Positions 49,832 through 64,000 of a stretch of DNA of 64,000 nt are shown in pieces. The stretch comes from Synechococcus sp. WH 8020 (GTDB lineage Bacteria > Cyanobacteriota > Cyanobacteriia > PCC-6307 > Cyanobiaceae). How positions within the stretch are numbered: position 1 is the stretch's first letter; the number at the start of each line of letters is the position of its first letter. A program made the position numbers and the translations under genes. The stretch covers positions 1,187,676-1,251,675 of the forward strand of contig NZ_CP011941.1 in assembly GCF_001040845.1 (NCBI RefSeq). The letters run 5' to 3'. The notes under the pieces were generated by a model. That model had not been told where the DNA came from. It was given only the letters and a program-made list of their open reading frames with translations, and did no database searches.

Positions 49832-49917
49832 GGGGGCGTGGCGGAATCGGTAGACGCACGCGACTTAAAATCGTTTGGGCTGAAAAGCCTGTGGGGGTTC
49901 AAGTCCCCCCGCCCCCA
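49832..49917 (+). tRNA. trnL: tRNA-Leu (UAA), no intron
   Basis: An 86-base tRNA with acceptor stem GGGGGCG/CGCCCCC, long variable arm typical of Leu, T-arm GGGGGTTCAAGTCCCCC, and anticodon TAA at 49866-49868 in the loop CTTAAAA. CCA is not encoded. It lacks the group I intron seen in this tRNA in many other cyanobacteria. Confidence 0.97.
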
Positions 49918-49984: not shown

Positions 49985-52702
49985 ATGTCCAGTTCCGTCA
50001 ACGCGCTCTCGACCCAAAAGCGGGAAGAACCTCCTCATGAGATCCATCGCTGCAAAGAGCGTGAGGCTGGGGATGTCGCATGGAATTTATGGGGGACCTA
50101 CCTCAGCGACCGTCAATGGGGCACCGTTCGGGAGGATTATTCCGCTGACGGCAATGCATGGGAGTCATTTCCCTTCGAGCAGAGCCACCTACGCACCTAC
50201 CGCTGGGGAGAGGATGGCTTACTTGGCTTGAGCGACGTTGAGGGATTGCTCTGCTTCGCGCCTGCACTTTGGAACGGTCGGGATCCAATTCTCAAGGAAC
50301 GATTGTTCGGCCTCGGGAATCCCGAAGGCAATCACGGTGAAGACATCAAGGACACGATGTATCACCTGGCAGGAACACCAACCTGCAGTTATGCCAAAGC
50401 CCTTTATCGCTACCCACAAGCAACATTTCCCTATCAACATCTTCGTGATGAAAACAGGCGTCGCTCCCGCGACGAAAAAGAATATGAGCTAGTCGATACA
50501 GGAATCTTTTCAGACAATCGCTTTTTCGACATGGAAGTCGAATATGCAAAAGCTGATGCCAAAGACATCTTCATTCGCCTCACCATCACAAATCACAGTG
50601 ATGAATCATCCGAGCTACATCTCTTACCTAGCCTTTGGTACCGCAACACCTGGTCCTGGGGAGATCCTCAGTCGAGACGGCCAAACTTGCATCTCCAAGG
50701 AAACAGTTTGGTGTCGGAGGCCATCGATGGCCTTGATGCTTACGAACTGAACTGCAGTGCAAAGGGCACGTGGCTTTTCACAGAAAATGAAACCAATACT
50801 CAGGCTCTCTGGGGCGAACCCCTTACTCAGCCTTACGTGAAAGACGCCTTCAACCGCTATCTAATTAACGGGGAACAGAACGCCGTCAATCCAGCTCAGC
50901 AGGGCAGCAAAGCCGCTCTTCACCTCCATCACACTCTCGCCGCAGGAGAGTCTTGGGTTGTGCATTTACGACTGCGTCGACAAAGCGACCAAGCAACGAA
51001 CCAAACATTGCCAATCGCTGCAGCGGACAGCGCACGTTTGGTTGAGATGCGATACCTGGAATGGAAGCATCATCAGGAATGGATTGCTCCAGGTCTCAAC
51101 GACGAAGACCGCGCCATCCACTCTGCTGCAGGAGCAGGGCTGTTCTGGTGCAGAAAATTTTACAACTGGAATGTCACTCGCTGGCTAAGAGGAGACAACA
51201 ACTCAACTCGCCCTCCCAAACAACGCTGGGAAACTGAAAACGCTTACTGGAAAACATTACGCGCTAAAAATATTATTTCCATGCCAGATTGCTGGGAATA
51301 CCCCTACTTCTGCCAATGGGATTTAATGTTTCACGCCGTCGCTTTTGCAGAATTCGATGCTACTGAAGCGAAGCAACAATGTCGAATGCTAAGACAGGCC
51401 TATTACACAGCAACAAATGGTCAATCCCCTGCCTACGAATGGGCACTTTCTGATGCCAATCCACCCATTGGTGCGTGGGCAGCCCTGCGGATCTTTCAGA
51501 TCAGCCGCCGCCACACAGGAGAAGGAGACTATGCCTTCTTAAGGGCAAGTCTCCGAGAGCTATTGCTCGAATATGGTTGGTGGACAAACAGAACTGATCG
51601 CAATGGAGACAACCTGTTTGAGGGAGGCTTCCTAGGCCTCGACAATATTGCCATCTTCGATCGACGCTATCCTCTTAAAGACGGAAGTCGCATCGAACAA
51701 TCAGATGGCACAGCCTGGATGGGGCTCCTGAGCCTTAACTTGCTACAAACAACGGTGATTCTTGCAGAAGAAGATCGAGAAGAATACATCGAACTGTGCT
51801 CACGTTTTGTTCGCGATTTTACTCGTCTAACATATTCTCTAAATAGTTCTGTTGGCCGAGGATTTGTTAACTGGGACGATAAAGATGGCTTTTATTATGA
51901 CGTTCTCAAGCGCCCTGATGGCTCTACTGATTATCTGCGCACTAGATCGATTAGTGGTCTCATCCCACTTTTAGCTGTCAATAGCTTTGCCGCCAGCAGC
52001 GTAAAAGCTATTCCTTCTCTAGACGTTGGCCTCCATCTCGCGCAGCTCGAAGAAGAACGGGGAGCACCTTTCGATGCAATCAGCCACCTTGGATCCTGGA
52101 ATCACGATCGCATTTTGTTCTCCATCGTTCCACCTGAAAGACTTAGGCGCATTCTTAAACGCGTTTTCGATGAAGAAGAATTCCTTTCCCCTTATGGAAT
52201 CAGAAGCCTATCCAAAGCCTATGAAAACAACCCATATTCATATCAACAGGGTGATGACTATGCTTCGATTAGCTACAGCCCTGCAGACAGCCCCATAGCA
52301 ATGTTCGGAGGAAATTCAAATTGGCGTGGGCCAGTGTGGATGCCAATTAATTTCCTATTAATCGAGGCTCTTCAGAAATTTGGTCATTTCTTCGGCGATG
52401 ATTTCAAAATAGAGTTCCCAACAGGTTCTGGACAAGAAATGAATCTCTGGGAAATTTCTCTTGAACTAGAGAAGCGCCTTATTGGAATATTCAGACGGGA
52501 TGAAAACCAACGCAGAGCCTTCAATGGTGATGTTGAAGTCTTCCAAAATGACCCCCTATGGCGTGACTTATTCCTATTCAATGAATATTTTCATGGCTGT
52601 AATGGATCAGGGATTGGAGCGAGTCACCAAACAGGCTGGACCGCAATCGTTGCAAAAATGATGACGCAACTTCAGCGTTGGCAACCCAACAAGGAAAGCT
52701 GA
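49985..52702 (+). CDS. GH63-type glycosidase (MGH1-like)
   Basis: A 905-residue protein. The region from about 340 on contains an (alpha/alpha)6-barrel pattern of GH63/MGH1-like enzymes: CWEYPYFCQWDLMFH, NPPIGAWAALRIF, FEGGFLGLDNIAIFDR and DGTAWMGLLSLNLLQ. Members cut alpha-glucosyl or mannosyl linkages; targets include glucosylglycerate, glucosylglycerol-like solutes and oligosaccharides. No signal peptide, so cytoplasmic. ATG at 49985 was preferred to GTG one codon upstream. It opens the carbohydrate cluster directly behind the tRNA-Leu. The substrate cannot be read. Confidence 0.8.
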   Translation: MSSSVNALSTQKREEPPHEIHRCKEREAGDVAWNLWGTYLSDRQWGTVREDYSADGNAWESFPFEQSHLRTYRWGEDGLLGLSDVEGLLCFAPALWNGRDPILKERLFGLGNPEGNHGEDIKDTMYHLAGTPTCSYAKALYRYPQATFPYQHLRDENRRRSRDEKEYELVDTGIFSDNRFFDMEVEYAKADAKDIFIRLTITNHSDESSELHLLPSLWYRNTWSWGDPQSRRPNLHLQGNSLVSEAIDGLDAYELNCSAKGTWLFTENETNTQALWGEPLTQPYVKDAFNRYLINGEQNAVNPAQQGSKAALHLHHTLAAGESWVVHLRLRRQSDQATNQTLPIAAADSARLVEMRYLEWKHHQEWIAPGLNDEDRAIHSAAGAGLFWCRKFYNWNVTRWLRGDNNSTRPPKQRWETENAYWKTLRAKNIISMPDCWEYPYFCQWDLMFHAVAFAEFDATEAKQQCRMLRQAYYTATNGQSPAYEWALSDANPPIGAWAALRIFQISRRHTGEGDYAFLRASLRELLLEYGWWTNRTDRNGDNLFEGGFLGLDNIAIFDRRYPLKDGSRIEQSDGTAWMGLLSLNLLQTTVILAEEDREEYIELCSRFVRDFTRLTYSLNSSVGRGFVNWDDKDGFYYDVLKRPDGSTDYLRTRSISGLIPLLAVNSFAASSVKAIPSLDVGLHLAQLEEERGAPFDAISHLGSWNHDRILFSIVPPERLRRILKRVFDEEEFLSPYGIRSLSKAYENNPYSYQQGDDYASISYSPADSPIAMFGGNSNWRGPVWMPINFLLIEALQKFGHFFGDDFKIEFPTGSGQEMNLWEISLELEKRLIGIFRRDENQRRAFNGDVEVFQNDPLWRDLFLFNEYFHGCNGSGIGASHQTGWTAIVAKMMTQLQRWQPNKES

Positions 52703-52753
52703 CGCAACGCGCCAATCTGACTACCTTGAAAATGATTTACCCAGATCAAGATC

Positions 52754-54355
52754 ATGGTTTGCTCCACCCGATCGACTGCGCGCTGTACGTCGATCGAACC
52801 TCAAGGAGAAGACTTTGATGTTGTGATCATCGGAAGTGGCGCTGGGGGTGGAACTCTGGCCAGGGCACTTGCCGATTCCGGCCATTCGATTCTGATCCTC
52901 GAGCGAGGTGGATGGCTGCCAAGAGAACCTCAAAATTGGGATCCGGTTGAAGTGTTCCAAAATGATCGTTATGTCTCCAAGGATCTTTGGGAAGACAAAG
53001 ATGGGACATCCTTCCAACCAGGAAGCCATTACTTCGTAGGTGGTGCTTCAAAAATGTATGGGGCTGCTCACTTCAGGCTGCGTGAGCGTGACTTTGAATC
53101 GGTGATGCATGTTGATGGAGAGTCACCGGAATGGCCGATCAAATATGACGTTTTTGAACCCTATTACCGCAAAGCAGAAGAGTGGTATCACGTGCATGGT
53201 TTAAGAGGCGAAGACCCGTTTGAACCCCCTGCATCGTCTCCTTATCCCTACGAACCGATTAGCCATGAACCCCGAATGCAAAAGCTGGTCGATGACCTTC
53301 GATCTGCAGGACTAAGACCTTTTCATCAGCCCACAGGTGTTGCTCTCAACGAAACATCGCCAGCATTTAGTGACTGCGTGCGCTGTAACCGCTGCGATGG
53401 TTTTCCCTGTTTGGTGCATGCAAAAGGCGATGCTGAAGTGATGGGAGTGAGGCCAGCGCTCAATCATGACAACGTTTTCCTCCTAACCAATGCCGAGGTT
53501 GTTCGGCTCAACACCAACTCCTCAGGCCGTGAGGTCAGTGAAGTAGTTGTGAATCACGAAGGCAAAGAACGGCATTTCAAGGGAAGTATTGTTGTGATCT
53601 CTGCAGGGGCCGCGAATTCGGCTCGTCTGCTTTTAATGTCAGCTAATGAGGCGCACCCCCACGGATTAGCCAACAGCTCGGATCAGGTAGGAAGAAACTA
53701 TATGTACCACAACTGCAAAGCAGTTGTGGCCTTAGCGCATGAGCCAAATCACACGGTGTTTCAGAAAACGGTAGCCATCAATGACTGGTACTTCGGAGAC
53801 AACGATTTTGATTTTCCAATGGGTCATGTGCAAATGACGGGCAAAACCAATGGGGCCATGATGAAAGGATATAAACCACGACTGACCGCCTTAGCTCCGA
53901 CTTGGAGCATGGACAAACTCGCAGAGCATTCCCTGGATTTTTGGATGCAAACAGAGGATCTACCTCGGTCATCCAATCGTGTCACAGTTAATCATGAAGG
54001 TAAAATTCATCTGAACTACACCCCAACCAATAATCAAGCATCGCAGGAGTTAATCTCAAGGTTAGAAGGATTACTAGACAAGCTGTACCTAAAAAATCAC
54101 TTAGCAGAAAGGCAGGTGTACTTTGCATCAGCCATGGAGCTTGCGGCAGTAGGCCATCAATGCGGCACTTGTCGATTTGGTCAAGACCCAAAAACCTCTG
54201 TCCTAAATCTGAATTGCCGCACTCATGATGTCGACAACCTTTACGTTGTTGATACCAGCTTCTTCCCAAGCAGCGCAGCGGTGAATCCATCTCTCACCGC
54301 TATCGCTAATGCCATTCGCATCAGCGATCACCTGCGTGAGCGACTCAACGGTTAA
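52754..54355 (+). CDS. GMC-type flavin oxidoreductase
   Basis: A 533-residue protein. The FAD loop VVIIGSGAGGGTLARAL is at 23-39. The C-terminal active-site GHQCGT and NPSLTAIANAIRISDHL carry the His/Asn positions of GMC enzymes. A Cys cluster CVRCNRCDGFPC (208-219) is present in the middle. Such enzymes oxidise sugars, alcohols or cholines. No signal peptide. It is 51 bp behind the glycosidase gene, and its stop overlaps the convergent DoxX gene by 4 bp. Confidence 0.85.
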   Translation: MVCSTRSTARCTSIEPQGEDFDVVIIGSGAGGGTLARALADSGHSILILERGGWLPREPQNWDPVEVFQNDRYVSKDLWEDKDGTSFQPGSHYFVGGASKMYGAAHFRLRERDFESVMHVDGESPEWPIKYDVFEPYYRKAEEWYHVHGLRGEDPFEPPASSPYPYEPISHEPRMQKLVDDLRSAGLRPFHQPTGVALNETSPAFSDCVRCNRCDGFPCLVHAKGDAEVMGVRPALNHDNVFLLTNAEVVRLNTNSSGREVSEVVVNHEGKERHFKGSIVVISAGAANSARLLLMSANEAHPHGLANSSDQVGRNYMYHNCKAVVALAHEPNHTVFQKTVAINDWYFGDNDFDFPMGHVQMTGKTNGAMMKGYKPRLTALAPTWSMDKLAEHSLDFWMQTEDLPRSSNRVTVNHEGKIHLNYTPTNNQASQELISRLEGLLDKLYLKNHLAERQVYFASAMELAAVGHQCGTCRFGQDPKTSVLNLNCRTHDVDNLYVVDTSFFPSSAAVNPSLTAIANAIRISDHLRERLNG

Positions 54356-54843
54356 GCCAGAAACTGTTGCAAACGTGGAGCAACCCAAAGCAGATCAACA
54401 CTGATTGGCCCTCCACCTGATGTCATCAAAACTGAACACATCACCACATACATCGCTGCTTTTTCCCAACTAGGAGGCTCTCCAACTCCCATAGGGCCTG
54501 CATAATCTCCCTGAGGGATTTGAAAGGGATCAGGGGCGATAAAGGGAAAGCCATTGCGAAGCTCCAAGACAACGGCATAAATCATCGACACAGCAATGGC
54601 CATTGCCGCTAATGGCGTGAGGAACCCAACCACTAAAGCGATACCTCCAGCCCACATTGAAAAGGCCGAAAGAAAGCAGAGCCAAGCGGGAGTTTTCATC
54701 GCATCAGCCCAAAGGCCAAGGTTGCTTAATTTCGTCCAGCCATGACGAATGAAAACTAAACCGGTGAAAAGGCGAAGCAAGATCAAACCACTGGATGCAA
54801 ACCCCAAAGAGGAATCAGGAACCAGAAGAGAAACAACGTCCAT
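54352..54843 (-). CDS. DoxX family membrane protein
   Basis: A 163-residue protein with four hydrophobic helices, FIRHGWTKLSNL near the first, and MIYAVVLELRNGFPF in the middle, matching DoxX. DoxX relatives are small quinol-linked membrane proteins and often sit next to oxidoreductase genes. ATG at 54843 was preferred to a TTG at 54864. The gene overlaps GMC by 4 bp at the 3' ends. Confidence 0.8.
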   Translation of the reverse strand: MDVVSLLVPDSSLGFASSGLILLRLFTGLVFIRHGWTKLSNLGLWADAMKTPAWLCFLSAFSMWAGGIALVVGFLTPLAAMAIAVSMIYAVVLELRNGFPFIAPDPFQIPQGDYAGPMGVGEPPSWEKAAMYVVMCSVLMTSGGGPISVDLLWVAPRLQQFLA

Positions 54844-54892
54844 GAGTTTCACCACGATGCACAAACATTACAAACAGTTGTCGTTGTAGTCA

Positions 54893-55723
54893 TCAAGGAT
54901 GAAGCCAAAGGCGATGACCATCAGGATCCACCAACAATTGACCTGTCGCCAAGGTGGTGTCCCTTACCAGGATCTGAGCATAAAGAGCATCTTGAGGCTG
55001 CAAATCAACGGAGGACGGTCCTATCGGTTCAGGCTGCACGTAACGAAGAAACTCAACTCCACAACCAGATCTTCCTCCAACTCCATGAATCACAACCTCA
55101 GCAGCGTCCAAATCATCAAGCCGTTGCTGCTCCACACCCTGGTTGTAAGAGGCGTATCGCAACTCCAATCCCAACTCGCGAACATAAAAGCGCAGGCTCC
55201 GATCTGAATCAGAAACAGCGATTGCACTGTGATCAAGCCCCTGAAATAAAGACTCGCCGGATTGATGCCAACGGGGATCGCCCATCCCCTCTGGGAAAAA
55301 CAAGAGTTCCATCGCATGGCCGCAAGCATTTCTGAATTTCCACGCTCCAACCCCATTGGGCAGATATTGAGGTGCAGCAGAAATGGGGGTCACAACAGGC
55401 GCCAATCTCTCAGCAGCCCTCAGCAAATCACGCACCACAATCGCGACATGTTGAAACCACAGTGTGTTCGACGGCCCTGGATCCACCTTGTGGCGTAGTG
55501 GTGCCTCCGGGAAGTGAATGATTTCAATGCGTTCATGGCCCAACAAAAAAGGAGTGATCTCTGCCCGACCGGCGCTCAGTCCAAAACGCTGCACAGCGGC
55601 CTCTTTCTCGAGACATTGCCGAGGTTGCGCAACAGCTCCGAGAGCATCGAAAAGGGGTGCTAGTGCTTCAGGTTGAGGGGCTGAAAACGCCACACCCTCA
55701 ATCCGTCCAGATTGTGAAACCAT
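54893..55723 (-). CDS. VOC (glyoxalase/dioxygenase) family protein
   Basis: A 276-residue protein made of two VOC modules: the first with WFQHVAIVVRDLL (His) and CGHAMELLFFP (Glu), the second with GLDHSAIAVSDSDRSLRFYV and DPDGHRLWL. This fits a two-domain glyoxalase/extradiol type metalloenzyme, one active site perhaps with Fe2+ or Mn2+. Substrate unknown. It is on the reverse strand and divergent from the SDR gene with a 103-bp gap. Confidence 0.82.
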   Translation of the reverse strand: MVSQSGRIEGVAFSAPQPEALAPLFDALGAVAQPRQCLEKEAAVQRFGLSAGRAEITPFLLGHERIEIIHFPEAPLRHKVDPGPSNTLWFQHVAIVVRDLLRAAERLAPVVTPISAAPQYLPNGVGAWKFRNACGHAMELLFFPEGMGDPRWHQSGESLFQGLDHSAIAVSDSDRSLRFYVRELGLELRYASYNQGVEQQRLDDLDAAEVVIHGVGGRSGCGVEFLRYVQPEPIGPSSVDLQPQDALYAQILVRDTTLATGQLLVDPDGHRLWLHP

Positions 55724-55826
55724 CTATTGTCCTGGAAACCTTTGTCTGTTGATAGCAACAAGGCTTACCGATTAACTGCCAGGACTGACAAAAGCGGCTA
55801 ATTGAAGAGTAGATCTAAAAAGAGCC

Positions 55827-56624
55827 ATGACTCAGGTTCCCCACGCTTTAGCTTCCCTCTGCCTGCAGGACAAAGTCATTGTTGTCACAGGCGGAAATTC
55901 CGGTATTGGCAAAGCAATTGTTGAAGTGGTGGGAAGCCTGGGCGCCAAAGTCGTGATCGACTACCGCTCTCATCCTGAGCGGACTGAGGAATTAATCGAT
56001 GAAGTGGGCGAACTCGGTGGTCGATCGATTGGTGTTCAGGCTGATGTCAGCAAGCTCGAGGATCTACAACAATTAATCGATACCGCTGTACAAACATTCG
56101 GAAAAATTGATGTGATGGTAAACAATGCTGGTATCGAAACGCGTACATCGATTCTGGATACCTCTCCAGAAGACTTTGACAACGTTATGAATGTGAATTT
56201 ACGCGGTGTATTCTTCGCTACTCAATACGCTGCAAAACAGATGATTAGCCAAGGAAGTGGTGGCCGAATCATCAATATCTCTTCAGTCCATGAAGATTGG
56301 CCTATGCCAAATAACACCCCATACTGCGTCGCCAAAGGGGGCGTTCGCATGCTCACACGCACGGCTGGAGTGGAACTCGCAGGCAAAGGCGTCTCCATCG
56401 TGAATGTAGGCCCCGGAGCAGTTGCAACCCCCATTAACGACTCCACCATGAACGATCCAGAATTACTAGCCAAATTGAATGCAGCCATCCCGATTGGGCG
56501 TATGGCACAGCCAGCGGAAATCGCTTCAGTGGTTGCCTTTTTGGCCGGGAATGGAGCCAGCTACATGACAGCCACTAGCGTGTTCGCAGATGGCGGGATC
56601 ATGATGAGCAGCCCTGGGCTCTGA
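55827..56624 (+). CDS. Short-chain dehydrogenase (glucose 1-dehydrogenase type)
   Basis: A 265-residue classical SDR. Cofactor loop TGGNSGIG (21-28), NNAG (99-102), catalytic Ser152/153, Tyr166 and Lys170 (PYCVAK). It resembles glucose 1-dehydrogenases, which make gluconolactone. The next genes include a lactonase, which supports a sugar-lactone route. ATG at 55827; no strong RBS. Confidence 0.85.
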   Translation: MTQVPHALASLCLQDKVIVVTGGNSGIGKAIVEVVGSLGAKVVIDYRSHPERTEELIDEVGELGGRSIGVQADVSKLEDLQQLIDTAVQTFGKIDVMVNNAGIETRTSILDTSPEDFDNVMNVNLRGVFFATQYAAKQMISQGSGGRIINISSVHEDWPMPNNTPYCVAKGGVRMLTRTAGVELAGKGVSIVNVGPGAVATPINDSTMNDPELLAKLNAAIPIGRMAQPAEIASVVAFLAGNGASYMTATSVFADGGIMMSSPGL

Positions 56625-56659
56625 TCGCGAAGGCTTCGCAGTTCATCATTCGCATCGGA

Positions 56660-56791
56660 TCAGGTCCACTGAATCACCATCTTCCAAAGATGTCCCTCAA
56701 GTTCCTTGCCGGCAGCAAGGGCCTCGAGGGCATCCGGCGAAAACGTCAAGCTCGCTGATGGCTGATGCACCAGGATGTCCAAAGAGCTGAA
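56660..56791 (-). pseudogene. C-terminal remnant of a medium-chain dehydrogenase
   Basis: The reverse strand is open from 56791 to a TGA at 56660 and encodes LDILVHQPSASLTF then PDALEALAAGKELEGHLW and KMVIQWT, like the end of a zinc-containing alcohol dehydrogenase/quinone reductase. An in-frame TAG (56794-56792) lies immediately upstream and no start is seen. So only the last 43 codons remain. The match is to a common C-terminal pattern, so family assignment is tentative. Confidence 0.4.
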
Positions 56792-56870
56792 CTAAAATCT
56801 ATCGTCGTCGCCATGGCTGCAATGTCGTCGAGACAAGCTGCTCATGGGGTCGAAAGTTGACCTTGATTCA

Positions 56871-57818
56871 TTAGGACAGAGCAGGGTGCTGCAGCCCCCT
56901 TGTGTTGACATAAATGGAATACATAGTGTCCCAGCTGCACAAAAACAGCCGATTGCCATTAACACCACCGAAGCAGAGGTTGCCGACCAGACGTGGTGTA
57001 GCAATCCGGCCCAGCAAAGTTCCATCGGGAGCAATGCAATGGACCCCGTTACCAGCACTGCTCCAGACATTGCCGATCGCATCCACACGAATTCCATCGG
57101 CGTTGCCATTGTTGACTCGGTGGAAATCTCGGCGGCCCGAGAGCTTCGAACCGCCTTCCTCAACGTCGAATAGGTGGATCAGGGGATCAGGGGTCGAATC
57201 ATCCGGGGCACAGGTATCGACGACATACAGCATCGACTCATCAGGTGAAAAGGCAAGCCCATTTGGCCCTTTCACCTCGTCTGGAGACGTCATGGCCTGG
57301 AGTGAGCGATCCGCCGGATCAAAGCGATAAATCACCGCTGGCTGAAAGGAGTGCCGACGCCCTCCTTCGAAATCATTGACCAGCCCATAGAGAGGATCAC
57401 TGAACCAAACAGTGCCATCACTCTTGACCACAACATCATTGGGGGTGTTTAAAGGCTGGCCCTGATGAGAGTCCACTAACGAAACAACCTGACCGTTGTG
57501 TTCTGTTCGAAGCAAAGCACGATGACCATGGCTGCAAGTCAGTAACCGTCCCTGACGATCCCTTGTTTGCCCATTAGGAAAGCCAGCGGAATGTCGAAAA
57601 ATACGGAGACCATTGCTTTCATCCCAAGACAAAATCCGATCGTTTGGGATGTCAGACACCAGTAGCCGCTGCTGGTCACCGAACCACACCGGCCCCTCCA
57701 GCCATCGGCAACCGTCGAACAGTTTTTCCAACTGTGCGTTGAACAACACCAATGAGTGAAATCGAGGATCGACCACTTCGACACTGGTCTCGACAAACTC
57801 ACTGCGATACACGCTCAT
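56871..57818 (-). CDS. SMP-30/gluconolactonase-type beta-propeller hydrolase
   Basis: A 315-residue six-bladed beta-propeller. CRWLEGPVWF (metal Glu41), PNDVVVKSDGTVWF (Asn/Asp), KGPNGLAFSPDESMLYVVDT, and HRVNNGNADGIRVDAIGNV follow in order, typical of lactonases. It opens sugar lactones to acids. ATG at 57818 was chosen because of the RBS-like AAAGGA just upstream. It follows the cupin gene by 11 bp, so they are cotranscribed. Confidence 0.85.
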   Translation of the reverse strand: MSVYRSEFVETSVEVVDPRFHSLVLFNAQLEKLFDGCRWLEGPVWFGDQQRLLVSDIPNDRILSWDESNGLRIFRHSAGFPNGQTRDRQGRLLTCSHGHRALLRTEHNGQVVSLVDSHQGQPLNTPNDVVVKSDGTVWFSDPLYGLVNDFEGGRRHSFQPAVIYRFDPADRSLQAMTSPDEVKGPNGLAFSPDESMLYVVDTCAPDDSTPDPLIHLFDVEEGGSKLSGRRDFHRVNNGNADGIRVDAIGNVWSSAGNGVHCIAPDGTLLGRIATPRLVGNLCFGGVNGNRLFLCSWDTMYSIYVNTRGLQHPALS

Positions 57819-57829
57819 TGTTTGTCCTT

Positions 57830-58285
57830 TCAGCTGAAAGATCCTGGAGGAAGATTTCTCCAAGCTTGATCATTGCGCTGGATAATCAGTTGCACACAGG
57901 GTTCATCGCCAACCTGCGCGGAAAGATGCCCAGTGCGTCCATCTGGCGTCATGATGCAACCCTGATCTCCGCCGTACGAATATTCGCCAGCTTTCATCAA
58001 TGCAATCTGCCCGTCCATACTCGTCACAGTCCAGGCCCCACGCAGCACATAAATCCATTTTGGCTCAGGATTCTCATGCCAAGGCCCCACCCAGCCAACC
58101 GGCAGATAAGTGACAAACGCATTGCCATCCTTCATCAAACCTCTTGAAAACTGAGGTGAATTGCGCTCTCCCAGACGACCAAGAGTGAACTGACTAATCG
58201 TGCAACTCTCTTGCCGACTGATCCCATCGGCATCCGTCCAGAGATGCCAATAGGTTTCAGCAACAGGTGCCAGAGGGTCGCTCAT
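57830..58285 (-). CDS. Cupin-domain protein
   Basis: A 151-residue protein with a cupin barrel: GWVGPWHENPEPKWIYVLRG (His-x-Glu and the metal box), then AGEYSYGGDQGCIMTPDGRTGH. Likely a small sugar-binding or dioxygenase-like metal protein. It begins a two-gene reverse-strand unit with the SMP-30 lactonase gene. Confidence 0.82.
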   Translation of the reverse strand: MSDPLAPVAETYWHLWTDADGISRQESCTISQFTLGRLGERNSPQFSRGLMKDGNAFVTYLPVGWVGPWHENPEPKWIYVLRGAWTVTSMDGQIALMKAGEYSYGGDQGCIMTPDGRTGHLSAQVGDEPCVQLIIQRNDQAWRNLPPGSFS

Positions 58286-62387: not shown

Positions 62388-62894
62388 ATGCCGATGATTG
62401 GGCTGCTCCCCCCGCTCAACGACAAGAATCTCCCCTGGCTAGATGTCATTCATCCCATCGTGGTGCATTTCGTGATTGCGATGGCTCTGATCACGGTGGT
62501 GTTTGACCTGATTGGAGTGCTCACACGGCGCCAGAACCTCTTTGAGGTGAGCTTCTGGAACTTGCTGGTGGCGACAGTGGCCATTTTCGTGGCCATCATC
62601 TTTGGACAGATTGAAGCCGGTTTAGCCACTCCTTATGGAGCTTCAAGAGACATTTTGAATTACCACAGCACGATTGGTTGGTCCCTCGCTGCGATTCTCA
62701 GCCTGCTAACAGGCTGGCGATACGTCGCAAGGCAAAAAGATCCCACAGTGCTGCCCAGAGGATTTCTGATAATTGATTCAGTTTTAGCCATTTTGGTGTT
62801 CTGCCAGGTTTACCTAGGCGACAAACTCGTTTGGGTTTATGGACTCCACACGGTCCCGGTTGTCGAAGCAGTCCGTAGTGGAGCCCTGTTATGA
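62388..62894 (+). CDS. DUF2231 membrane protein (oxidase cluster)
   Basis: A 168-residue protein with four hydrophobic helices and the HPIVVHFVIAMALITVVFD motif of DUF2231. In cyanobacteria a pair of these precedes cytochrome oxidase genes of the alternative terminal oxidase. ATG at 62388; an in-frame ATG two codons on is equally possible. It overlaps the next gene by 4 bp. Confidence 0.85.
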   Translation: MPMIGLLPPLNDKNLPWLDVIHPIVVHFVIAMALITVVFDLIGVLTRRQNLFEVSFWNLLVATVAIFVAIIFGQIEAGLATPYGASRDILNYHSTIGWSLAAILSLLTGWRYVARQKDPTVLPRGFLIIDSVLAILVFCQVYLGDKLVWVYGLHTVPVVEAVRSGALL

Positions 62895-63511
62895 ATTGCA
62901 TCAGCACCATTCTCTCGCCGGTGAATGAAATCGCCGACAAACTTGGGGCTAATGATCTCCCCTACTCGATCCCGATCCATCCCAATTTGGTGCATTTCAC
63001 CATTGGGCTGTTTGCTATCGGAATCGCGTTTGATTTTGCAGGAGCCTTTTACCCTTTGGAGAAACGAGTCTTTCGTTTCCTGGCACTACCGGCAACACGA
63101 AGCGGGTTTCACGATGTTGGTTGGTACAACATTCTCGCTTGCAGCGTGATCACCTTTTTCACCGTTGCAGCTGGCTTTTACGAAATGCTCCTTGCCGTTC
63201 CACTACAAGGAATTCGCAGCATCATTGGCCAGAATGCAATCGACACCATGCTGTGGCATGCGATCGGAGGGGTCGCCCTGCTACTCATCATTGTGGTGAT
63301 GGCTATCTGGAGAGGATTTCAGAGATTTTCGTGGCGCAAAGATTACGGTCGTCAGGTGAGCTGGCTCTATCTCGGCTGCGGAGCCGTAGTGCTTCTGGTC
63401 ATGGGCGTGCATGGAAGCCTTGGGGCATGGCTTGCCAGTGAATTTGGCGTTCATATCACAGCGGATCAACTCCTCGCCGCCGGTGCCGATCTCAATGAGG
63501 TGCTGCCATGA
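62891..63511 (+). CDS. DUF2231 membrane protein, second copy
   Basis: A 206-residue protein, again DUF2231 (SIPIHPNLVHFTIGLFAIGI), with four helices and a longer C-terminus. Overlaps both neighbours by 4 bp (ATGA), so the two DUF2231 genes and the oxidase subunit are translated as one unit. They may be heme-related membrane partners of the oxidase, inferred only from gene order. Confidence 0.85.
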   Translation: MNCISTILSPVNEIADKLGANDLPYSIPIHPNLVHFTIGLFAIGIAFDFAGAFYPLEKRVFRFLALPATRSGFHDVGWYNILACSVITFFTVAAGFYEMLLAVPLQGIRSIIGQNAIDTMLWHAIGGVALLLIIVVMAIWRGFQRFSWRKDYGRQVSWLYLGCGAVVLLVMGVHGSLGAWLASEFGVHITADQLLAAGADLNEVLP

Positions 63512-64000
63512 CGACCACAACGCCCAAGAAGGGACCCAACATCAGCGCGATTGTCATCATCACAGTCGCTATCGCGATCAATCTGATCCTTTCCAAACTG
63601 ATGGCGAACTGGTCTCTCAGTTGGTTCCCACCACAAGCCTCCAGTGCCGCTCCTTACGTCGACAATTTGTTCGCATTAGAGACGGGGGTCGGCACGTTCA
63701 TTTTTTTAGGTTGTACAGGTGTGATGGGTTGGGTGCTGTTATTCAACCGGGCTGGAAAATATGACGAAAGTGATGGGGCGCCGATTGAGGGCAACACCAA
63801 ATTGGAAATCACTTGGACGATCATTCCCCTGGTGACGGTATTCCTAATCGCCACCTATTCGATGAACGTCAATATGAAGCTTCAAACCCTCGGACCCAAG
63901 CATAAATACGCCGTCGGCACGGACCCAACCGTGCTGATACAGACCGATCCCATGGCCGAGGTGGGACCCATCGATATCATTGCCCGCCAGTGGAGTTGGG
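63508..64000 (+). CDS. ctaC: Cytochrome c oxidase subunit II, N-terminal part (cut by window edge)
   Basis: Starts ATG at 63508 and runs past the window end. The first 164 residues show two transmembrane helices (about 12-30 and 52-75), NTKLEITWTIIPLVTVFLI of subunit II, and then the start of the periplasmic copper domain (IDIIARQWSW). The Cu_A ligands are beyond the window. With the two DUF2231 genes this looks like the alternative respiratory terminal oxidase (ARTO) operon. Confidence 0.9.
   Translation, partial: MTTTTPKKGPNISAIVIITVAIAINLILSKLMANWSLSWFPPQASSAAPYVDNLFALETGVGTFIFLGCTGVMGWVLLFNRAGKYDESDGAPIEGNTKLEITWTIIPLVTVFLIATYSMNVNMKLQTLGPKHKYAVGTDPTVLIQTDPMAEVGPIDIIARQWSW

Follow-up and report, generated by a model that had tools for sequence, protein, structure and literature searches.

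The seven intact genes that follow a tRNA-Leu(UAA) gene in Synechococcus sp. WH 8020 encode putative sugar-oxidizing enzymes and their neighbours, and lie in the window analysed here, a stretch of 64,000 nucleotides (G000:C1:1187676-1251675) that is part of a 2.66-Mb genome. These genes are inherited as a block in the Cyanobiaceae and, in most of the relatives having them, the sugar genes are joined end to end with the operon of an alternative respiratory terminal oxidase (ARTO) and a second gene of the GMC family, which suggests what may feed ARTO. Tentatively, we read the block as a module for oxidising sugar that is coupled to respiration in the membrane, by a chain ending at a type-1 ARTO, which we consider quite possible, short of probable.

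Gene Content of the Locus

The tRNA-Leu(UAA) gene (49832..49917, plus strand; identified by ARAGORN) forms the left boundary of the block. It is followed on the plus strand by a gene for a GH63 or MGH1-like glycoside hydrolase of 905 amino acids counted from its ATG (49985..52702; Pfam PF22422, 69.5 bits, and PF03200, 42.4 bits against a cut-off of 22.4, together with a predicted model and Foldseek) and by GMC1 (52754..54355), a flavin adenine dinucleotide (FAD) GMC dehydrogenase recognised by Pfam, by its matches to solved structures and by two motifs, a C-x2-C-x2-C-x4-C loop and the pair His468/Asn511. On the minus strand lie the genes for a DoxX-family membrane protein with three hydrophobic segments (54352..54864; Pfam DoxX, 45.3 bits) and for a VOC or glyoxalase-superfamily protein (54893..55723; Pfam Glyoxalase, 33.3 bits), a recurrent neighbour in relatives. 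An SDR resembling glucose 1-dehydrogenase (55827..56624, plus strand) is supported by Pfam, by solved relatives and by the presence of YxxxK and GxxxGIG, and two further minus-strand genes encode an SMP-30/gluconolactonase-like protein (56871..57818; Pfam SGL, 152.7 bits against a cut-off of 26.3; PDB 3e5z and 3dr2) and a cupin-domain protein (57830..58285; Pfam Cupin_2, 29.0 bits, narrowly over the cut-off of 27.2), which adjoins SMP-30 in several relatives. An earlier, sequence-only reading of this DNA had listed eight neighbouring genes behind the tRNA; seven of them are intact in the open reading frame listing, all exceeding the curated Pfam cut-off for their named domain, and the eighth is a broken gene. 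Moreover, strand and spacing point to four transcription units, GH63-GMC1 (plus), VOC-DoxX (minus), SDR (plus) and cupin-SMP30 (minus), in place of the three that had been proposed.

The cluster, which that reading closed with the cupin gene at 58285, is extended by the ARTO genes and GMC2 after the genes for pyrC, SulP and a CaCA-type antiporter. The ARTO part begins on the plus strand with two genes for DUF2231 membrane proteins, the first at 62388..62894 (L057:1564-2070) and the second at 62891..63511 (L057:2067-2687), both recognised by Pfam, and continues with coxB, which occupies 63508..64000 and runs to 64443 past the window end (L057:2684-3619). Thus, the window holds DUF2231-DUF2231-coxB (62388-64000); beyond its end, in window numbering, follow coxA (64452-66140), coxC (ending at about 66750) and GMC2 (66791-68308).

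Gene Order and Co-Inheritance in the Cyanobiaceae

Co-inheritance was followed in 151 Cyanobiaceae genomes drawn from a larger group, in all of which six proteins were searched (G numbers denote genomes and L numbers loci of relatives). The identity cut-offs for orthologs, 55% for the GH63 of the block (GH63-1), 64% for GMC1, 65% for SDR, 53% for SMP-30 and 74% for coxA, were chosen after viewing the gaps in the identity distributions, DoxX was counted at E 1e-15, and the matches of 35-42% identity in the GMC1 search were called GMC2. These cut-offs excluded the SDR of G083 (54%), the SMP-30 matches of G072, G076, G102, G121, G126 and G024 (30-47%) and second matches of G127 and G144 (31-32%); the fragmented genomes G103, G105, G087, G074, G080 and G138 were kept in the counts. 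Gene distances are those between matches, and the Fisher p-values for co-occurrence ignore shared ancestry.

GH63-1 and GMC1 occur in the identical 41 of the 151 genomes, which is more than chance agreement; no more than 356 bp separates the two genes in 38 of these genomes, and in the other three they are on separate contigs. GH63 presence varies within 10 genera, and GMC1 tracks it in all 10; in seven of these genera a GH63-negative genome is at least 98% complete, the negatives of g44, g47 and g59 being 73-89% complete. SDR accompanies GH63 in 39 of the 41 genomes and is found in one incomplete genome outside them (G022), DoxX in 37 of the 41 and in none of the other sampled genomes, and SMP-30 in 18 of the 41 and in G022. 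ARTO coxA and GMC2 are each present in 66 genomes, with 65 having both and 67 having either, and GH63-1 is found without ARTO coxA only in the fragmented G105. From these counts, the content is nested: ARTO and/or GMC2 in 67 genomes, GH63-GMC1, mostly with DoxX and SDR, in 41, and SMP-30 in 18. In its view of these genes as one cluster, the sequence-only reading is supported by their inheritance as a block. As a separate observation, G034, a 99% complete genome of the same genus, has no ARTO-type coxA, GMC2, GH63, DoxX, SDR or SMP-30 at the thresholds used.

The two halves are also physically close. GMC2 and ARTO coxA lie 588-1,223 bp apart in 64 of the 65 genomes with both, the other pair being split over contigs, and GH63 and GMC2 are separated by 9-67 bp in 34 of the 40 genomes that have both, lying on different contigs in four and far apart in two. 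In 21 of the 27 GH63-1 genomes whose neighbourhood was read, the genes follow one another without a break as DUF2231-DUF2231-coxB-coxA-coxC-GMC2-GH63-GMC1 (L049 being truncated on the left), and GH63 shares its strand with GMC2 in the loci whose order was read. After this series come DoxX, VOC, HbpS-like, SMP-30, cupin and SDR genes in varying number and order. The remaining six of the 27 genomes are the window, G123, and L051, L056, L067 and L074, in which four ARTO lies elsewhere. The window and G123 are the only sampled genomes in which GH63 and GMC2 share one contig and are nevertheless 14-15 kb apart.

ARTO Operon and Its GMC Neighbour

The ARTO subunits are all recognised by Pfam, as COX1, COX2 and COX3 plus two DUF2231 proteins, and are encoded in the order of two DUF2231 genes, coxB, coxA and coxC (L057). 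The CuA motif C-x-E-x-C-x3-H was not found in any of the 29 ARTO loci holding coxB (30 were read, L245 being without coxB), including the CoxB of the window genome (L237). The subunit order and the predicted lack of CuA in subunit II identify the operon, on its sequence, as a type-1 ARTO. The Anabaena Qox/ARTO operon, alr2729-alr2730-coxB3-coxA3-coxC3, is described as a type-1 ARTO, and subunit II of ARTO/Qox is reported there to lack CuA (PMC6616624). Both operons therefore have two genes before coxB-coxA-coxC and a subunit II without CuA. The genes alr2729 and alr2730 presumably encode DUF2231 proteins. However, the Anabaena operon, as described in PMC6616624, ends at coxC3, whereas in Cyanobiaceae GMC2 follows coxC.

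GMC2 stands beside ARTO in 21 of 30 ARTO loci, each covered to about 1.5 kb past coxA; the nine without it all belong to family f7, one genome of which (G315) does carry GMC2. In a phylum-wide sample of 244 genomes, in each of which the six best candidates were scored, GMC2 is matched strongly (E below 1e-170) in 16 genomes from outside the Cyanobiaceae, and in every one of them an ARTO-type coxA lies 0.6-1.4 kb away. Thus, GMC2 accompanies ARTO, but ARTO is not always accompanied by GMC2. A literature search that covered mainly openly available papers, without their supplementary data sets, turned up none that connects ARTO with a GMC protein, its single match being on Thaumarchaeota, and the term 'GMC' is absent from the main text of Dore et al. 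2023 (PMC10119275).

Putative Functions of the Enzymes

GMC1 and GMC2 both have membrane-bound FAD glucose and fructose dehydrogenases as their nearest solved relatives. The motif comparison between them excluded matches of 430 residues or fewer and contains three rows that are duplicate or mislabelled (L040_11442, L226_1489 and L068_8210); the tree was built on 99 distinct rows. In GMC1, His468/Asn511 and the cysteine loop are invariant in 18 aligned Cyanobiaceae rows and are shared by relatives in Nostoc, Nitrospira, Terriglobia and others, the third loop cysteine being missing in three cyanobacterial rows (L232-L234). Its best solved matches are the Burkholderia glucose dehydrogenase (6a2u) and fructose dehydrogenase (7w2j), which have a His/Asn pair and a cysteine-rich loop at the aligned places. 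In the Burkholderia glucose dehydrogenase, as described in PMC6719666, catalysis relies on the pair His476/Asn519, and a 3Fe-4S cluster, held by Cys212, Cys218 and Cys222 and located between FAD and the electron-transfer subunit, takes electrons from FAD. Unlike these enzymes, GMC1 has a different cysteine spacing and lacks an export-like hydrophobic start by hydropathy. Moreover, no gene for a hitchhiker or haem-c subunit was recognised among the Pfam-scanned genes of the block and the ARTO operon. On its motifs, the best reading is that GMC1 works like an FAD dehydrogenase of the direct electron transfer type; since no hitchhiker or multihaem c genes were recognised, it is not filed as a member of such a complex. 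A further parallel is MftG of mycobacteria, a GMC protein described as shuttling electrons toward the respiratory chain (PMC11778925). GMC1 matches the NCBIfam MftG profile weakly (71 bits against a cut-off of 387), and Pfam and NCBIfam scans of the block revealed no gene for mycofactocin.

In proteins of the GMC2 class, the cysteine loop is absent and the Asn position holds Gly, Ser or Pro in all rows, while the His is replaced in most (by Tyr in the window genome) and kept in L043, L221 and L226-L229. In the tree, all 49 distinct rows that lack the loop group in a single clade, apart from the 50 that have it, with support of 1.0. The FAD-binding start is retained, and a CGTC motif is invariant across 19 Cyanobiaceae rows; the predicted model of GMC2 is too poor for use, with a mean predicted local distance difference test (pLDDT) score of 49. 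Because the loop and the Asn are absent and the His is mostly replaced, GMC2 is unlikely to be an ordinary alcohol dehydrogenase.

The GH63 profile matches two solved structures at E 0.001, a mannosyl-oligosaccharide glucosidase and a Chaetomium alpha-glucosidase, and the predicted GH63 model, which averages a pLDDT of 75 but falls under 50 in loops such as 435-443, 538-560 and 868-883, has processing alpha-glucosidase I and Escherichia coli YgjK as its nearest folds among the best 50 of 362 Foldseek matches. Neither those two sequence matches nor those best 50 fold matches include a glucosylglycerate or mannosylglycerate hydrolase. D554 and E868, which we take to be the GH63 catalytic places, are invariant in 24 aligned rows (the row of L053 was left out, having a stop inside its range), and E868 aligns with a Glu of 4j5t. 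In contrast to glucosidase I and YgjK, to which it is only 11-14% identical, the window GH63 appears cytosolic by hydropathy and lies inside a block of redox genes. Published work (PMC6608630) sets GH63 enzymes whose cleft is open to larger substrates apart from the hydrolases of glucosylglycerate and mannosylglycerate, which are capped. Since glucosidase I, the nearest solved sequence, and YgjK, as against the capped hydrolases, are the closest relatives, an alpha-glucan or oligosaccharide seems likelier than a small solute as substrate.

For the other enzymes, the nearest solved relatives of SDR are glucose 1-dehydrogenases, although it scores 254 bits against NCBIfam PRK08936 (glucose 1-dehydrogenase), below the cut-off of 420, and those of SMP-30 are gluconolactonases (3e5z, E 2.9e-55). 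The single theme of sugar oxidation that the sequence-only reading had seen is upheld in that the nearest solved relatives of SDR, SMP-30 and GMC1 are sugar or lactone enzymes. For the cupin and VOC proteins, whose function was also considered, the solved relatives are only weak ones. A simple hydropathy scan found no export-like hydrophobic start in GH63, GMC1, GMC2 or SDR, so the chemistry probably takes place in the cytosol.

Tandem or paralogous forms of GH63 also occur. In L049 and L076, a second GH63, 48-50% identical to that of the window, stands in tandem after GMC1; in other genomes, GH63-2 lies away from the block. These GH63-2 paralogues, with 42-45% identity in the eight separate loci read, were rejected as part of the system, since they lie outside the block and share no neighbour family in more than three of those loci.

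Relatives outside the Cyanobiaceae

GH63 relatives are present in 64 of the 329 genomes of the phylum sample and across many phyla, in at least 583 confirmed stretches. Neighbours were clustered in 73 of 80 GH63 loci outside the Cyanobiaceae, many of them short, and groups in which GH63 lies near GMC1 of at least 50% identity and SDR or VOC were found in Nostoc, Terriglobia, a proteobacterium, Nitrospira and Rokubacteria.

Further arrangements were seen around these GH63 genes. In L115, L119, L121, L133, L140, L156 and L176 (Acidobacteria, Nitrospira and a proteobacterium), GH63 is near a gene for a protein of about 700 residues that may be glycogen-debranching-like. In two cyanobacterial genomes of 6.5-6.9 Mb (G277:C7:2413309-2420124 and G340:C188:39233-49522), only a few kb separate GH63 from a further coxA gene, which is 62-64% identical to the window ARTO coxA, and in G340 a GMC1-class gene also adjoins GH63. 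L202 (G331) has the order SDR-GMC1-VOC-GMC1-GH63, with two cysteine-loop GMC genes flanking VOC, and in L132, L148 and L158 (Nostoc) a gene that looks aquaporin-like from its sequence lies beside SDR and GH63.

A Possible Route from Sugar to Oxygen and Its Alternatives

From the gene content, protein families, motifs, adjacency and co-inheritance observed, we infer a route with a substrate, a direction for its electrons, DoxX as a link and a role for GMC2. In the cytosol, GH63 would cut glucosyl residues off the ends of an alpha-glucoside or alpha-glucan, releasing glucose. GMC1 would then oxidise this sugar, or else the intact glycoside, yielding a lactone or keto sugar, and would transfer the electrons of its FAD to an iron-sulfur cluster. 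SDR could perform a parallel NAD(P)-linked sugar oxidation, and SMP-30, where present, could open the lactone. The electrons of GMC1 would then reach the membrane, perhaps via DoxX and plastoquinone, and ARTO, a putative quinol-type oxidase without CuA, would pass them to oxygen. GMC2 would belong to ARTO and not to the sugar, either as a relay that brings electrons to the oxidase or as a helper in its assembly. In a more specific form of this proposal, which we think unlikely, GMC2 would have lost its role in oxidising alcohols and turned into a fourth component dedicated to the haem-copper oxidase, taking electrons from GMC1 or another donor and delivering them to ARTO directly or via a bound quinone. 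In that case, some cyanobacteria would have a private chain, located at the plasma membrane, that leads from sugar to oxygen. A partner gene for ARTO, together with a sugar dehydrogenase module behind the oxidase, would bear on the electron source and purpose of ARTO in cyanobacterial bioenergetics and provide concrete genes for their study. As for the sequence-only reading, its observation was partly confirmed and its interpretation partly supported: the chemistry of the block was fairly named and the link to electron transport that it suggested is likely, and the ARTO operon and GMC2 were missed.

Several observations weigh against the coupling of the sugar module to ARTO. In the window, pyrC, SulP and CaCA separate the two halves, GH63-GMC1 lies on another contig than ARTO in G108, G037, G077 and G051, and ARTO and/or GMC2 occur without GH63 in 26 of 67 genomes. 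SMP-30 is absent from 23 of the 41 GH63 genomes, and G126, although 99% complete, has no DoxX. Two loci beyond the 151 genomes, L108 (Synechococcus sp. AG-679-A04) and L190 (G440), keep GH63, in L108 together with SDR, but have no GMC1 within the locus, the only region searched for it. Independence of the genes in relatives, named by the sequence-only reading as a case against itself, is thus not seen for GH63 and GMC1 in the sample, although the absences of SMP-30 and these two loci point the other way. As to the other such case, a GH63 homologue alone elsewhere, GH63 relatives do occur elsewhere and most of their loci have no GMC1 nearby: among the 73 loci outside the Cyanobiaceae, GMC1 of at least 50% identity is found in eight, several with SDR or VOC, and no ARTO genes are found, many of these loci being short. 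The missing hitchhiker and haem-c genes count on the same side, as do the six GMC2-class loci that keep the His, in view of which GMC2 may have retained activity. Finally, the gluconate kinase TIGR01313, considered as an exit of the pathway, was rejected, as it was found in none of the 151 genomes and was found in the controls E. coli and Corynebacterium glutamicum, FGGY-type kinases not being tested; its absence speaks against simple gluconate use via that enzyme.

Part of this evidence would fit two independent units that share the locus by history, ARTO-GMC2 serving as an electron sink or in iron reduction and GH63-GMC1-SDR-SMP30 serving in sugar oxidation, with no shared electrons. The genomes with ARTO and/or GMC2 alone agree with this, as do G075, G101 and G141, which keep ARTO-GMC2 and have pyrC directly after the tRNA-Leu, and the GH63-GMC1 groups that Nostoc and members of other phyla have with no ARTO. 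Nevertheless, the spacing of 9-67 bp between GH63 and GMC2 on the same strand, and the near-complete restriction of GH63-1 to genomes with ARTO coxA, speak against unrelated units, and we regard their independence as doubtful. In another alternative, ARTO, or GMC2 with it, would serve at the plasma membrane as a reductase of Fe(III), with electrons coming from the sugar module under iron shortage. Marine work ties ARTO to iron limitation: according to Dore et al. 2023, 85% of the reference genomes for Synechococcus carry ARTO, which is also present in Prochlorococcus from waters low in iron, and a Synechocystis ARTO mutant cited there is impaired in Fe reduction and uptake (PMC10119275). An HbpS-like gene, haem-related by its Pfam name, is also part of the block in relatives. 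However, the window has no HbpS-like gene at this slot and no iron transporter was recognised among the scanned block genes, and this explanation seems improbable.

The sequence-only reading had favoured a compatible-solute glucoside, such as glucosylglycerate or glucosylglycerol, broken down via a sugar lactone to gluconate. The MGH1-like Pfam domain in GH63 and the lactone chemistry suggested by SDR together with SMP-30 would suit such a pathway, which is nevertheless disfavoured by the likeness of GH63 to processing glucosidase I and YgjK, rather than to the capped hydrolases of glucosylglycerate and mannosylglycerate described in PMC6608630, and by the lack of TIGR01313 in the sample; we consider it very improbable. 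On balance, coupling of the sugar module to ARTO is retained as the tentative reading.

Place at the tRNA Gene and Decay within the Block

The tRNA-Leu(UAA) adjoins trpA-DUF3007 in 11 of 15 loci scanned, the other four lacking this place. Similarity between the window and the module-less G075 stops at the 3' end of the tRNA and, in the comparison with G101, 16 bases later. A mobile island at the tRNA was considered and rejected: there is no integrase among the open reading frames listed for the window, and the whole cluster, from ARTO to SDR, follows the same tRNA in L048, L055, L062, L111 and L112. For these reasons, presence and absence at the tRNA are read as loss or rearrangement of an old cluster, gain being a less likely alternative.

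A decayed gene with approximate coordinates 56660..56841 lies on the minus strand between SDR and SMP-30, detected by six-frame translation, tblastn and the Pfam domains of its intact relatives. The sequence-only reading took it for a remnant dehydrogenase; it instead corresponds to the C-terminal part of a small Nif11-domain protein. By tblastn, its tail matches the small protein of the same slot in L107 (78%) and L037 (76%) over 37 residues, and Pfam places a Nif11 domain in the L037 protein (104 residues) and in its L048 counterpart. As read from the six-frame translation, the gene of the window is truncated and frame-shifted. In G123, the nearest relative read, the slot contains a RidA-like stretch, a Nif11-domain gene and an HbpS-like gene; compared with G123, the window appears to have lost two genes at this slot and to hold the third in broken form.

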